Below are positions 12,712 through 36,353 of a stretch of 39,059 bases of DNA, piece by piece. Each line of letters opens with the position of its first letter. Position 1 is the first letter of the stretch. Under the pieces are notes generated by a model. That model did no database searches and was not told the origin of the DNA. It was given only the letters and a program-made list of their open reading frames with translations. Made by a program: the position numbers and the translations under genes. This stretch comes from Plantactinospora alkalitolerans (lineage in GTDB: Bacteria > Actinomycetota > Actinomycetes > Mycobacteriales > Micromonosporaceae). Location: positions 1-39,059 of the forward strand of contig NZ_JADPUN010000239.1 of assembly GCF_015690345.1 (NCBI RefSeq). The letters are read 5' to 3'.

Positions 12712-12731
12712 CGCCGGAACCTCCCTCTCCC

Positions 12732-12867
12732 GCCGCTGCCCCGTGCCCGCCGCTGGCCTGTGCCCGCCGCTGGCCTGTGCCCGCCGCTGGCCCGTGCCTG
12801 CTGCCGGCCTGTGCCTGCCACTGGCCTGCGCCTGCTGCCGGACTGCGCCTGATGCCGGACTGTGCCT
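12732..12867. repeat. 17-bp minisatellite, eight units
   Basis: Eight adjacent units of exactly 17 bp follow GCCGCTGGCCTGTGCCC with gradual divergence (the 2nd and 3rd are identical; later ones carry CCGGACTG variants). Because 17 is not a multiple of three, any frame is shifted at each unit, so three units give a 17-residue pattern in all frames and keep them all open. The array ends just upstream of the ribosome site of the membrane-protein gene. Confidence 0.92.
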
Positions 12868-12938
12868 GCCGCCTGCCGTCGTGCCAAGTCTGTCCGGCGG
12901 CCTCGGCCGGGACGTCGCCACCGCTGCCGAGATGCGGA

Positions 12939-24716: not shown

Positions 24717-26999
24717 TCAGGGAAGCTGGTAGACGGCCATCCGGCGGTTCTCGAACCGCAGCCGGGCGAGTTGGCGCAGCGCCGGAGACTCCGGCCCGAC
24801 CGACCGGTCCACCACGAGCCACCGTACGGCGTACCGGTCCCGCAGGTCGCGCAGTCCGGCCTCGGTGGGTGCGGTGAACGCCGCGTCGTTGCGCCGCAGC
24901 AGGTCCTGGTCCCAGAACGGGGTGTACGCCCCCAGCGTCGCCATCCGGGGCGCGAAGCCCCAGCCCTCGACCAGCACCCGGCGTTCGGCGTACGCACTGA
25001 GCCAGAACGAGCGCGAGTCGCACCAGCCGTTGACGACGGCCTGGCAGTGCACGTTGGTCGCCAGCACGTCGCCCGGAGCGCTGTGCTCCCGGGTCCAGCG
25101 GGCCGCGTCGATCCGGGACTTCGGCAGCGAGATCGGCGTGTACGCACCTCCGTTCGGCCACCGGGCCGACTTCTGCATGTCCATCACCAGGCCGGGTGCC
25201 CCGACCACCAGGACGGCGGTGAGCAGGGCGATCGCGCCTCGGCCCCGGAGTGCCGGAATGCCCTGGCTGGCCGGTCGCCACAGCCCGACGGCGAGGACCG
25301 CCAGCACGGCCAGCCCGCCGGACCACCACAGCAGTGGCTGGATCCAGTCCGACGGTGCTCCGACCGGGGCCGGTTCGGCGTACCGGAGCTGGATCGCGAC
25401 CAGGGCGACGGCCAGGACCAGGGCGAACAGCCCCAGTGCCGCCCGGGAGCGCCGGGTCAGTTCGGCCCGCTCGGCGAGCAGCACGTACCCCCAGGCCGAC
25501 AGCACCACCGCGAAGGTGAAGCCGGCCCGGGTGAAGTACTGGTTGGCGCCGCCGGGTTGCTGGAGCAGAAGGAAGAACGCCGGGCCGGCCAGGGTGCCGC
25601 CGAGCAGGAACCACTGCACCGGTTCCAGCCGGCCCCGGCGCAGCCAGAGCAGCGGGCCGATGCCCACCACCCGAAGTTGCATGTTGACTCCGAAGGCGGC
25701 GAACACCGCCGTCACCGCCAGCGCGCCGGCCCAGCCCGACCGGTCCGTCGGCGTCGCCCAGAACGGCTCCAGGCTGGCGAACGGCTCGACCTCGATGCCG
25801 TACGCCTTGAAGCGGTACAGCACCGCCGTGGCGAACAGTTGGGCGGCTGCGGCGGTCAGTCCCGCCCCGACCACCGCCCACGGGATCCGACGCGTCCGGA
25901 CCAGCAGGACCACGGCGGTGAACGCGAGCGCGGCCCCCACCACCGGCAGTGTGCTGGCCTTCGCACCGCTGGAGGCGAACATCAGCAGTGGCACGAGGAC
26001 GAACGCGCCCCGGCCGATCGGGGCGACCGGTCGATCGGCACGCCGGTCGACCAGATCGGCGAGTACGGCGATCAGCGCGATCAGCAGCACCCAGCTGTAG
26101 ATCATCGACATGCCGTGCCAGATCACGAACGACGCCTGGGTGCCGAACGGCATCGTCACCGGGTCGGTGAAGTTGGTCTCGCCGAGAACGAAGAACAGGA
26201 CGGCGGCGATCGCACCGACGTACGGCCGGCCGCTGACCCGCCAGCCCAGCACCGCGGTGAGCACGATCGCGGCGGCGCACAGGGCCGGGATGGTCAGCCG
26301 CAGCGCCACCACCGGCAGGTCGATGTGCCCGATCAGGCTGGTCGCCGCCATGTGCACGTACCCGAACCAGTGGTAGTCGAGCGGTTCCTGCGCGACCTGG
26401 GGCAGATGGATCGGGAACTGGTGCTTCGCCTCACCGGCCAGCGAGAGCTGGTAGGCCAGGTCGAGATACTGGCGCGTGCCGTCCGAGGTGGGCAGGATCG
26501 GGTTGCGTTCCAGGAAGGTGACCGACAGGTAGGTGGTGAAGAACGCGACCGCGCCGACGACGGACCACGACCAGCCGACCGGGGTGGGACGGTAGCCCCG
26601 GACCAGCCAGTTCCGGCGCAGTTTCGGTACACCCGCGAAGACCGCCACGATCGCCGCCGGCCACGTCCACAGCCAGTCGCCGAGGCCGAGTACGGCGTAG
26701 CCGGCCCAGGCGGGCAGTTCGAGCACCAGCCCGACGGCGGCACCCATCGCCACGTCCTCGACGAGCGTGTGCGGCCGTCGGCGCAGGGCCCGGTAGACCA
26801 GGGTGCCCGGCAGGATCAGCGCCAGCAGGACGTACCCCGCGTAGCGGACGAGGTCGAGCGGCGGGGTGTCGGCCGCCAGCAGCACCACGGCGAAGTAGCC
26901 GACCCCCACCACGAGCGGCGACCAGCGGCGCAGGGCACCGACCGAGGCCGACGTCGTCGAAGGAGAGGAGTCCACCACCGCCGGAGCGGTAACACTCAC
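24717..26999 (-). CDS. Large polytopic membrane protein, GT-C glycosyltransferase-like
   Basis: 760 aa from GTG at 26999, with GGAAGG 8 bases upstream. About a dozen or more membrane segments run from residue 29 to about 620. A first large loop contains ILPTSDGTRQYLDLAYQLSL and EPLDYHWFGYVHMAATSLIG. A soluble C-terminal domain of about 140 residues follows (IDAARWTREHSAPGDVLATN, then RYAVRWLVVDRSVGP). This layout, with many helices, an acidic first periplasmic loop and a C-terminal globular domain, resembles GT-C enzymes that use polyprenyl-phosphate sugars. No named family could be fixed and the catalytic Asp is uncertain. It is coupled to the 61-codon repeat ORF and, through it, to the GT2 gene. 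Confidence 0.7.
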   Translation of the reverse strand: MSVTAPAVVDSSPSTTSASVGALRRWSPLVVGVGYFAVVLLAADTPPLDLVRYAGYVLLALILPGTLVYRALRRRPHTLVEDVAMGAAVGLVLELPAWAGYAVLGLGDWLWTWPAAIVAVFAGVPKLRRNWLVRGYRPTPVGWSWSVVGAVAFFTTYLSVTFLERNPILPTSDGTRQYLDLAYQLSLAGEAKHQFPIHLPQVAQEPLDYHWFGYVHMAATSLIGHIDLPVVALRLTIPALCAAAIVLTAVLGWRVSGRPYVGAIAAVLFFVLGETNFTDPVTMPFGTQASFVIWHGMSMIYSWVLLIALIAVLADLVDRRADRPVAPIGRGAFVLVPLLMFASSGAKASTLPVVGAALAFTAVVLLVRTRRIPWAVVGAGLTAAAAQLFATAVLYRFKAYGIEVEPFASLEPFWATPTDRSGWAGALAVTAVFAAFGVNMQLRVVGIGPLLWLRRGRLEPVQWFLLGGTLAGPAFFLLLQQPGGANQYFTRAGFTFAVVLSAWGYVLLAERAELTRRSRAALGLFALVLAVALVAIQLRYAEPAPVGAPSDWIQPLLWWSGGLAVLAVLAVGLWRPASQGIPALRGRGAIALLTAVLVVGAPGLVMDMQKSARWPNGGAYTPISLPKSRIDAARWTREHSAPGDVLATNVHCQAVVNGWCDSRSFWLSAYAERRVLVEGWGFAPRMATLGAYTPFWDQDLLRRNDAAFTAPTEAGLRDLRDRYAVRWLVVDRSVGPESPALRQLARLRFENRRMAVYQLP

Positions 27000-27181
27000 C
27001 AGCCGAAACCTTCCGTTCGCGACTGCGGGGCTCGCAGAACCGGCTCACTCCTCGCGCTCACCGTGCAGACCTTCGTTCGCGACTGCGGGGCTCGCAGAAC
27101 CGGCTCACTCCTCGCGCTCACCGTGCAGACCTTCGTTCGCGACTGCGGGGCTCGCAAGACCGGCTCACTCCTCGCGCTCAC
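26996..27181 (-). CDS. 61-codon ORF of three 20-residue repeats bridging two glycosyltransferase-type genes
   Basis: GTG at 27181 overlaps the GT2 stop (GTGA), and the ORF's own TGA overlaps the GTG of the next gene at 26999 (GTGA). It encodes three copies of a 20-residue repeat beginning [MV]SARSEPVLRAPQSRTKVCT; the last ends TEGFGW. Each DNA unit also contains GAAGG 8 bases before a GTG, so each repeat could be a translation start. One unit differs from the others at two adjacent bases that turn GTT-CTG into GTC-TTG, both synonymous (Val-Leu). The product has no recognised domain; the role may be coupling rather than the peptide. Whether it is translated is not shown by sequence alone. Confidence 0.5.
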   Translation of the reverse strand: MSARSEPVLRAPQSRTKVCTVSARSEPVLRAPQSRTKVCTVSARSEPVLRAPQSRTEGFGW

Positions 27182-27193
27182 CGTGCAGACCTG
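27014..27193. repeat. Three tandem 60-bp repeats between the GT2 and GT-C-like genes
   Basis: Three head-to-tail units start at 27014, 27074 and 27134. The first two are identical over the core; the third has AAGA in place of AGAA (CTCGCAAGACC). Each contains a small hairpin, CTGCG-GGGCT-CGCAG, and on the minus strand a GAAGG ribosome-like site followed by GTG. From memory, similar short elements recur at gene ends in Micromonosporaceae; this needs a search. Confidence 0.95.
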
Positions 27194-28209
27194 GCGGAGC
27201 CGTTCCGGGCCACCGGTGCTCCCACGCTGTGGACGAGCGGCTCACCGAGGTCTGGAGCCGGGTCCTCGACCAGGTCGGCGGTGTCCGAACCGACGAAGTA
27301 ACTGGGCCGGCCCTGCACGGCGGCGTAGATCCGGGCGATGTACTCGCCGAGCAGCCCCAGGCAGAGCAGTTGGACCGCACCCAGGAACAGCACCGCGACG
27401 TAGAGCGAGGCCCAGCCGGTGACGGTGGAGTCGCGCAGGTAGGCGATGATCGCCAGCACCAGCATCACGGTGCAGAGCAGCATGCCGCCGGCACCGAGCC
27501 AGGTCGCCAGCCGCAGCGGTGCGCCGGAGAAGCTGGTGATGCTGTCGGTGGCCAACCGGACCATCCGCGAGAGCGGGTATTTCGTACTGCCCGCCGCGCG
27601 CAGCGAGCGGACGTAGCGCACCTCGCCGCTGGGGAAGCCGAGCCACGGCACCACCAGCCGGAGCACCGGACGACGCTCGGGCAACTCGCGCAGTGCCTCG
27701 ACGGTCGCCCGGCTGAGCAGCCGGAAGTCGCCGGCCTGGGCCGGAACCGTGTTGCCGACGAGTCGGCGTACCAGCCGGTAGTAGAGGCCCGCCGTCGACC
27801 GCTTGAACACCGTGTCGGTGGACCGGTCGGCGCGTACCCCGTAGACGATGTCCAGGGTCTCGTCGCGAGCCAACCGCAGCATGTCGACCAGGACCTCCGG
27901 CGGATCCTGGAGGTCGGCGTCGATGCTGGCGATGTAACCGCCCCGGGCCCGGAACAGGCCGGCGGTCAACGCCGCCTGGTGCCCGCTGTTGCGCCGCAGC
28001 CGGATGACCCGCAGTTGGGGCCAGCCGCGCCGCAGTCCGACCAGGATGACCGGGGTGGCGTCGGTGCTTCCGTCGTCGACGGCGACCACCTCGTACGGCT
28101 CGCCGAGCCCGTCCAGCACCGGACGCAGTCGTTCGACCAGTAACGGAAGAACGCTCTCCTCGTTGAACATCGGCACGACCACGGACAGGGCCGGCTCCCG
28201 GCTCGTCAC
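27178..28209 (-). CDS. GT2 polyprenyl-phosphate glycosyltransferase (DPM1/GtrB-like)
   Basis: 343 aa from GTG at 28209. The GT-A fold begins LSVVVPMFNEESVLPLLVE (8-26), followed by VVAVDDGSTDAT (41-52). The metal/nucleotide site is ASIDADLQDPPE (94-105, Asp97-x-Asp99). Two C-terminal membrane hairpin helices are at about 233-256 and 268-292. GtrB/YkoT-type members use this architecture to move a sugar from a nucleotide to undecaprenyl or decaprenyl phosphate on the inner face. The sugar is not predictable. The stop codon is the TGA of the first repeat unit downstream, which couples it to the 61-codon ORF and the GT-C-like gene, its likely user. Confidence 0.9.
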   Translation of the reverse strand: MTSREPALSVVVPMFNEESVLPLLVERLRPVLDGLGEPYEVVAVDDGSTDATPVILVGLRRGWPQLRVIRLRRNSGHQAALTAGLFRARGGYIASIDADLQDPPEVLVDMLRLARDETLDIVYGVRADRSTDTVFKRSTAGLYYRLVRRLVGNTVPAQAGDFRLLSRATVEALRELPERRPVLRLVVPWLGFPSGEVRYVRSLRAAGSTKYPLSRMVRLATDSITSFSGAPLRLATWLGAGGMLLCTVMLVLAIIAYLRDSTVTGWASLYVAVLFLGAVQLLCLGLLGEYIARIYAAVQGRPSYFVGSDTADLVEDPAPDLGEPLVHSVGAPVARNGSARSAR

Positions 28210-31524: not shown

Positions 31525-32610
31525 ATGCCCGACCCCGGCTCGGTACGGCTGGCGGACGGCGTCCAGTTGCACGTCGACACGTCCGGCCCCGACACCGCCG
31601 GCCTGACGGTCCTGCTGCTGCACGGCTGGACCCTGGACGGGCGTACCTGGCACCGGCAGGTGGCCGCGCTGCGCGACGCGTTCGGCGAGGCGGTCCGCGT
31701 GGTCACCTACGACGCGCGCGGCCACGGCAGGTCCGGCCCGGCCACGCTGCACTCGGCCACCCTGGAGCGGCTCGGCGACGACCTGGCCGAGGTGATCGCC
31801 GAGGTGGCCCCGACCGGCCCGATCGTGCTGGCCGGACACTCGATGGGCGGCATGACCGTCATGGAGTACGCCCACCGGCATCCCGAGGACTTCGCCCGCC
31901 GGGTCGCCGGCCTGGTCTTCGTCTCCACCACCGCCGAGGGCCACACCCACACCGCCTACGGCCTGCCGGCGCCGGTCGCCCGACTGATCCGGATCGCCGA
32001 GCTGGCCGGTACCGGACTCCTGGCCCGGTGCGGCGGCTGGCGGACCCCCCTGCCACTGCTCTACGCGCTCCGCCCGACCCTGCGCTGGCTGCTTTTCGGC
32101 GACGTGTGCGAATCGGCCGACATCCGGCTCACCTCATCGGCGGTGGCCCGCGCCTCGCTGGTCTCGATCGGCGGGTTCCGCCCGTCCATCGGCACCCAGA
32201 GCCGGCTGGCGACCCTCGCCGAACTGGCCGAGCTACCGGCGGCGGCCCTGGTCGGCGACCGGGACCGGCTCACCCCGCCACCCTGCGCGGTGTCGATCGC
32301 CGAGGCGTTGCCGTCGGCCGAGCTGACGGTGTGTCCGGGTGCCGGACACATGCTCATGCTGGAACGGGCCGACGAGGTGACCGGCGCCCTGCTCTCGGTG
32401 ACGCAGCGGGCGATGTCGCGGCCGGCGACGGTCCGGAAGACGGCGACGGTCCGGAAGACGGCGGCAGTTCGGAAGACGGCGACGGTCCGGACGGCGGCGG
32501 CAGTTCGGAGGACGGCGACGGTCCGGACGGCGGCGGCGCCGGCCGGGGCCACCGGACCGGTCGTCAAACAGCCACGACGACAGGAAGACCACAGCGCACC
32601 GTGCACCTGA
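31525..32610 (+). CDS. Alpha/beta-hydrolase with a repeat-encoded basic C-terminal tail
   Basis: 361 aa; ATG at 31525 with GGAGG at 31515-31519. The core (1-292) is a standard alpha/beta hydrolase: oxyanion-loop LLHGWTLDGRTW (31-42), YDARGHGRS (62-70), nucleophile Ser106 in AGHSMGGMT, an acid in VGDRDRLTPP (about 246-255) and a His in PGAGHMLMLE (about 275-284). The substrate is unknown. The last 69 residues are unusual: six repeats of a hexapeptide close to ATVRKT, then PAGATGPVVKQPRRQ. The tail is strongly basic and made by an 18-bp tandem array; this reading frame has G/C at nearly all third positions in the array, supporting it as the coding frame. Confidence 0.85.
   Translation: MPDPGSVRLADGVQLHVDTSGPDTAGLTVLLLHGWTLDGRTWHRQVAALRDAFGEAVRVVTYDARGHGRSGPATLHSATLERLGDDLAEVIAEVAPTGPIVLAGHSMGGMTVMEYAHRHPEDFARRVAGLVFVSTTAEGHTHTAYGLPAPVARLIRIAELAGTGLLARCGGWRTPLPLLYALRPTLRWLLFGDVCESADIRLTSSAVARASLVSIGGFRPSIGTQSRLATLAELAELPAAALVGDRDRLTPPPCAVSIAEALPSAELTVCPGAGHMLMLERADEVTGALLSVTQRAMSRPATVRKTATVRKTAAVRKTATVRTAAAVRRTATVRTAAAPAGATGPVVKQPRRQEDHSAPCT
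32424..32531. repeat. 18-bp in-frame tandem array, six units
   Basis: Six units of 18 bp run GGCGACGGTCCGGAAGAC (twice), a GGCGGCAGTTCGG variant, GGCGACGGTCCGGACGGC, the variant again, and GGCGACGGTCCGGACGGC. Alternating units form a 36-bp higher-order pattern in the second half. All lie in the C-terminal coding part of the hydrolase gene. Confidence 0.92.
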
Positions 32611-35971: not shown

Positions 35972-36353
35972 TGAGGGCTCCCTTCACGCACCCGGGCCGG
36001 CTCCGCGCCGCGGGCCCGGACCGGTCGGCGGCCTCGGCCGGTCCGATCCGGTCCACACCTCGCGACCCGCGACCGCCGGGCATCGACGAGTGTCACCTGG
36101 AACAGCCTCCGATGATGCCAGGTACCGAGCTGTCCGCATCTCGACATCTCGATCGCTCGCCTCGACGGCCCGGTCCCGGTGACACTGTCCGGATGCGGCC
36201 CGAGCCCGGTGACACCGCCCCGATGCGGCCCGAGCCCGATGACACCGCCCCGATGCGGCCCGAGCCCGATGACACCGCCCCGATGCGGCCCGAGCCCGAT
36301 GACATCCGTCCGCACCGGGCCGAGCCCCGCGACGACTTGCGGATGCCGTCGGA
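35972..36353. other. Intergenic region between the beta-propeller gene and the ABC permease
   Basis: This 382-bp divergent gap holds the 30-bp tandem array at 36192-36311 and a possible small ORF. The part near the beta-propeller gene (about 35990-36110) is GC-rich with no clear motif. Promoters for both divergent genes should lie here but could not be placed. Confidence 0.45.

Follow-up and report, generated by a model that had tools for sequence, protein, structure and literature searches.

The three 60-bp repeats that separate two genes in a 39,059-nucleotide stretch of the Plantactinospora alkalitolerans genome (contig NZ_JADPUN010000239.1; this whole stretch is referred to as the window) are very probably tandem copies of a short, MIRU-like and probably non-autonomous mobile repeat of the Micromonosporaceae that inserts at DTGA sites. 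MIRUs are the mycobacterial interspersed repetitive units that reportedly go back to Supply et al. in 1997. We refer to the new repeat as type A. As we picture it from the sequence comparisons described below, its insertion targets would be DTGA start codons, often those that overlap the stop codon of the preceding gene. Ribosomes that end the upstream gene would then restart on a mini-ORF formed by the repeat, translate through it and pass to the downstream gene. Presumably an insertion is nearly neutral and survives because ribosomes are handed on in this manner; units would be gained and lost in tandem, and lengths that break the hand-off would be purged by selection.

The junction in the window

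All of the features of the junction are on the minus strand. The upstream gene (27178-28209) matches the Pfam family Glycos_transf_2 (GT2), and its matches to NCBIfam models of the polyprenyl-phosphate type are all under the cut-offs. Its stop codon lies inside the GTGA at 27178-27181, which also contains the start of a 61-codon mini-ORF (26996-27181) built from three 60-bp type A units. The mini-ORF stops in a last GTGA (26996-26999), and this is where the downstream gene of 760 codons (24717-26999) starts; the gene was labelled GT-C-like when the sequence was first read, and it has no Pfam or NCBIfam match at the limits used. Each unit contains a 22-bp core (27134-27155, 27074-27095 and 27014-27035 for units 1, 2 and 3), which is found three times in the window and not once in 100 shuffled versions of it. 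Tandem Repeats Finder (TRF) reports a 60-bp unit in 3.1 copies at 27008-27192. Thus, the three-unit array between the two genes and the GTGA overlaps at both of its ends, which the sequence-only reading had described, are confirmed. TRF also lists tandem repeats at 12729-12872, 32423-32546 and 36166-36333, with periods of 17, 18/36 and 30/60 bp.

Two finer points of that reading hold in part. It placed GAAGG eight nucleotides before a GTG in every unit; by eye, this is so at the two internal unit ends, but the Shine-Dalgarno-like GAAGG at 27009-27013 is nine nucleotides 5' of the last GTGA, and CCAGG precedes the GTG of the first unit. It also held that the units differ only by synonymous changes. 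The change from GTT-CTG to GTC-TTG in one unit is indeed silent (both encode Val-Leu), but the last unit ends in a tail of a different length and with different residues (TEGFGW versus TKVCTV, by eye).

Dispersal in the genome and the family

The repeat is not confined to this junction. In the 9.2-Mb genome of the organism, blastn finds the unit at 15 places (the two weakest with E = 4e-4 and 8e-4), and the 22-bp core with up to three mismatches has 24 matches, compared to two for a reversed control; a first search pattern was dropped as too loose (528 matches versus 340 for its reversed control). The 15 places have a general layout in common, in which the element follows a DTGA and is followed in turn by a purine-rich stretch and a second start. 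At ten of them the upstream gene is connected to the downstream start by an unbroken chain of ORFs (eight by a -4 overlap and two by -1), two others, with distances of 195 and 60, stay in frame and continue into the next gene, and the remaining three have no long upstream ORF terminating in the element. The neighboring genes include pdxS/pdxT, trpC/trpB, nuoF/nuoG and several ABC-transporter pairs, as named by NCBIfam models for nine of the 14 other sites in this genome, with the transporter models matching under the cut-off. Therefore, the element is not bound to one gene function. The pdxS-pdxT array (locus L016, near 1549-1744) is the one that runs in frame into pdxT over a distance of 195, so that a long N-terminal extension of the protein is possible.

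With up to two mismatches, the core was found in 65 of the 150 family genomes, representing 21 of 44 genera. Among 249 genomes of the order, the 5' half of the unit, again with up to two mismatches, occurs in 37, which consist of 35 of the 42 genomes from the same family and two genomes of family f16 with a single match each; it has no match in family f8, which is the family with the MIRU motif (see below). A scan of named genomes found at least 118 stretches with the element, and among the 80 matches listed all are from Micromonospora except for one each from Plantactinospora mayteni, Paractinoplanes toevensis and an unclassified member of the Micromonosporaceae. In some of the copies in other genera (L029, L030, L031, L033 and L038), additional sequence separates the DTGA from the core. 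No match was found in 50,697 phage records, and one plasmid record, Micromonospora terminaliae pLB1, carries the element. The pLB1 copy (L169, 2005-2059) is located between genes for a lysophospholipid acyltransferase and a glycerol-3-phosphate dehydrogenase; no gene is listed at that position, in a gene table that is incomplete.

Empty sites and number of units

The GT2 gene is kept in all six of the genus relatives that were compared, and the junction that follows it differs among them. Five relatives (G104, G113, G078, G032 and G092) have a single GGTGA with no insert, and the sixth (G058) has two units where P. alkalitolerans has three. Since these five have one GTGA and no repeat, one ancestral GTGA became the two that now flank the insert. 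The trpC-trpB junction has one unit in P. alkalitolerans, two in G058 and a single ATGA in G113, with different or decayed insertions in the other four relatives. An ABC-transporter site (L017) with three units in P. alkalitolerans is a single ATGA in G113, G078 and G104, which are all of the relatives in which a close homologue is present. A further site (L019) yields no clean empty junction: G058 has about four units there, and in G113, G104, G032 and G078, which have no type A unit, the junction is instead taken up by duplicated sequence, a spacer or a type B element (see below). In G113 the end of the upstream gene seems to be duplicated in tandem at this site (L305), and two GTGAs are present. 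Among other pairs of sites, with orthology taken from the similarity of the flanks, the unit numbers are 1/2, 1/3 and 2/3.

These patterns bear on the proposal in the sequence-only reading that the array is a stepping stone between these two genes. The stepping-stone architecture stands, and the frame is kept at junctions throughout the genome, but the part of the proposal in which the array was made for this gene pair does not fit a unit that also lies at pdxS/pdxT, trpC/trpB, nuoF/nuoG and ABC-transporter junctions. The same observation makes it improbable that the array is a regulator specific to this operon, selected here so that the number of units would set the ratio of the GT2 protein to the next one. 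The double GTGA coupling and the presence of three versus two units in the two filled junctions would fit such a regulator; however, the same unit is present at unrelated junctions, and five of the six genus relatives do without it at the GT junction.

At 63 sites with a complete chain of ORFs, the ten nucleotides before the first DTGA and those before the last DTGA have an average of 4.71 bases in common, versus 3.73 for permuted pairs, and none of 2000 permutations gave a value as high; the same was true (0/2000) with five other settings, on pairs that were kept unmerged by orthology and with the Shine-Dalgarno bias controlled on average only. The resemblance is clear at L017, L019 and L037. 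This fits a duplication of the target in which the ribosome-binding site is copied. Insertion would then copy both the ribosome-binding site and the start codon, so that the mini-ORF and the gene would each retain one.

Placement at gene junctions and the frame rule

The placement was scored with a fixed, frame-blind geometry that used GC3-rich ORFs of 80 codons, identical places were counted once (103 places), and random places were drawn from the same loci. A GC3-rich ORF ends in the 5' DTGA at 77 of the 103 places, and one starts in the 3' DTGA at 81. Both are present at 63 of 103 element places, compared to one of 11,322 random places, which bears out the earlier suspicion that the double overlap is hard to get by chance. 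At 25 of the 103 places no long upstream ORF terminates in the element, and so the element also occupies gene starts that do not overlap an upstream gene. A DTGA is missing at one end, within the search windows, at 36 of 216 places; in the earlier set of 103 places the figure was 25, within fixed windows.

The distance between the two DTGAs follows a simple rule. In 104 scorable single-unit copies it is 2 mod 3 in 88, 0 mod 3 in 16 and 1 mod 3 in none. When sites with similar flanking proteins are merged, 73 unique single-unit sites are left, of which 60, 13 and none fall in these classes; 59 of the 73 reach the downstream start by a -4 overlap, 12 run in frame into the gene and two fail. The 44 unique sites with tandem arrays are similar (32 by -4, ten in frame and two failures), so that, for all 117 unique sites, 91 are coupled by -4, 22 are in frame and four fail. 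The genome-wide search that the sequence-only reading had called for thus placed the unit at gene starts and at stop/start overlaps with the frame preserved. That reading named non-synonymous or frame-breaking changes in relatives, and copies scattered away from junctions, as observations that would speak against it: non-synonymous changes are seen, whereas breaks of frame and scatter are largely absent, as the four failures indicate.

The rule that selects the 5' DTGA has a history that should be kept in mind. A first frame-blind rule that took the outermost DTGA gave 37, 6 and 5 of 48 sites for 2, 0 and 1 mod 3. The rule was narrowed after seeing the data to a DTGA 15-28 nucleotides before the core, which gave 42, 6 and 0 of 48, and it was then held fixed on a second set from named genomes, where the numbers were 48, 8 and 0 of 56; this set was chosen by an exact pattern and has at least one genome in common with the first set, and a further 25 of its places, 15 of which lie close to an edge, were left unscored.

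Lengths of 56, 59 and 62 dominate the single units, and the lengths that are 0 mod 3 are 57, 60, 63 and 66. The commonest length, 59, occurs at 39 of the 73 unique single-unit sites, and it was left out of one test because it could be fixed by the element and not by selection. Without it, the 2 mod 3 class contains 21 of 34 sites (p = 6e-4) and the 1 mod 3 class none of the 34 (p = 1e-6), in a sample where sub-families share lengths and the sites are partly dependent. The 43 unit periods are 60 bp (17), 59 (15), 61 (four), 56 (three), 62 (three) and 58 (one). Periods of 59 bp produce separate 20-residue ORFs, and periods of 60 bp produce fused ones, as in the window.

A second element

An 80-bp repeat that we refer to as type B has 35 matches, which are spread over 11 of the 150 family genomes. 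P. mayteni (G078) accounts for 16 of these matches, and the P. alkalitolerans genome has none at two mismatches. Copies are found, for example, in L313-L342, in trpC-trpB of L291 and in L307. The matches represent 28 distinct places, 27 of them scorable with windows that were fixed after inspecting the sequences. Every one of the 21 single copies has a length of 80 or 71 bp, which is 2 mod 3. The mini-ORF stops in the 3' DTGA at 22 of the 27 places, and the remaining five are tandem pairs. At 16 of 27 places the 5' DTGA contains the end of an upstream ORF, and at 26 of 27 the 3' DTGA contains the start of a downstream one. When types A and B are compared, 213 of 1000 shuffles give an equally good score, so that a relation is undetectable in this way, and a remote kinship may exist; when type B is compared to a MIRU, 970 of 1000 shuffles do.

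Constraint on the sequence, the RNA and the peptide

The repeat could also be a plain spacer element, such as a hairpin, a promoter or an RNA element, in which the open frame is a by-product of a fixed length. The predominance of length 59 would agree with this, but the dominant lengths are 56, 59 and 62, in-frame lengths occur at 13 of the 73 unique single-unit sites, and the 1 mod 3 class is empty; moreover, type B obeys the same length rule with no detectable similarity to type A. As to RNA structure, folding is weaker than in shuffled sequences in all four of the stretches folded (z of +0.6 to +1.8), and a search of 26500-27700 against Rfam gave no match up to E = 1, so an RNA-structure element was rejected as a candidate. 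Altogether, a plain spacer seems improbable to us, slightly more so than the operon-specific regulator.

The frame itself was studied in the first units of 179 copies, which were chosen by similarity of the core, a choice that limits variation in the core. The frame set by the DTGA contains a stop in one unit, compared to about eight expected, and the other two frames contain stops in 179 and 173 units. Synonymous changes make up 0.51 of all changes, versus 0.375 (sd 0.026) when the same changes are placed at random. However, many of the synonymous changes are concentrated in codons 8, 9 and 16, and codon 8 has G as its second base in 110 units and T in 69, so that the residue is Gly or Val. 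Furthermore, 13 of 15 third positions are identical in at least 173 of the 179 units, which implies that the DNA itself is conserved in addition to the open frame. The open frame is kept, and there is no clear selection for a particular peptide. The suggestion that the 20-residue repeat peptide has a role of its own, which was raised in the sequence-only reading, is weakened by these observations; the excess of synonymous changes and the scarcity of stops speak for it, but with the invariant third positions, the variable codon 8, the split into separate 20-residue ORFs at 59-bp periods and the lack of a Pfam match for the mini-ORF, we consider a functional peptide the least probable of the explanations.

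Comparison with known elements

A 2025 review describes MIRUs as apparently mobile, inserted at start codons, with an ORF coupled at -4 and a likely minimal impact on genes (PMC12548453). The MIRUs of senX3-regX3 are given as 77 and 53 bp in PMC4213456, and both lengths are 2 mod 3; the sequence of the 53-bp MIRU292 unit is printed in PMC7977185. A table of the latter paper also contains MAPK_TR_3, a 57-bp mycobacterial tandem repeat that likewise has AAGGAGTGA and that is perhaps a similar kind of repeat. In the order, a MIRU motif was found in 11 of 249 genomes, ten of which belong to one genus of family f8, and the one single match in the family of P. alkalitolerans is un-MIRU-like in appearance. 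Ten of 19 MIRU-motif loci inspected in f8 have a DTGA on both sides, and the distance, taken by hand for the nearest pair, is 2 mod 3 in eight, 0 in one and 1 in one.

The type A element resembles MIRUs in several ways. It is located at DTGA starts or stop/start overlaps, its small ORF overlaps both neighbors with a -4 spacing, its insertions are polymorphic with a single DTGA at empty sites (in the window junction, trpC-trpB and L017, and uncleanly at L019), its tandem copies vary in number, and the DTGA-DTGA distance is 2 mod 3. In contrast, no similarity in sequence is detectable; an alignment to the MIRU consensus scores 9, compared to a mean of 10.8 for shuffles, 452 of 500 of which do as well, and a repeat of the comparison gave 933 of 1000, so that homology to MIRUs was rejected as undetected. 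Type A also differs from MIRUs in that it resides in the Micromonosporaceae and has no match in f8, which we infer to be the mycobacterial family, and in an apparent duplication of the ribosome-binding site that precedes the insert, a feature that is not stated for MIRUs in the excerpts of PMC12548453, PMC4213456 and PMC7977185. Because the architecture is common to both and no similarity is detectable, type A would seem to work like a MIRU but by sequence is not one.

Two other kinds of short repeats can be compared by description. The Rickettsia palindromic element is a mobile short repeat that inserts inside genes and adds residues while the frame of the host gene stays open. Type A is also short, mobile and preserves an open frame, but it occupies gene starts and uses stop/start overlaps. 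The REP, BOX and ERIC repeats are short, dispersed and non-autonomous, as type A appears to be, and they form stable hairpins in spacers, whereas type A folds worse than shuffles and carries a coupled ORF.

Among the papers searched, no title or opening of an abstract refers to the type A element; 19 bases of the core, searched as text, match none of these papers, and MIRU and Micromonospora as whole words co-occur in none of them. Subscription journals were outside the search, and hence this is no proof of novelty.

Implications

No similarity is detectable among MIRUs, type A and type B, yet each keeps a length of 2 mod 3 between two DTGAs. We would give even chances to the idea that repeats bounded by DTGAs form a general class of translation-compatible mobile elements that arose more than once in actinobacteria, in which the choice of target may be tied to start sites through a putative mobiliser.

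In conclusion, these results suggest that the MIRU way of life, seated in the hand-off of ribosomes between genes, is not peculiar to mycobacteria. The 117 unique scorable sites in culturable Micromonosporaceae, which amount to over a hundred independent natural insertions and some of which have empty counterparts in relatives, provide a testbed for how operons tolerate coupled ORFs and for the movement of such elements. The element may also explain some odd N-terminal extensions and short intergenic gaps in genome annotations, for example in M. terminaliae pLB1.
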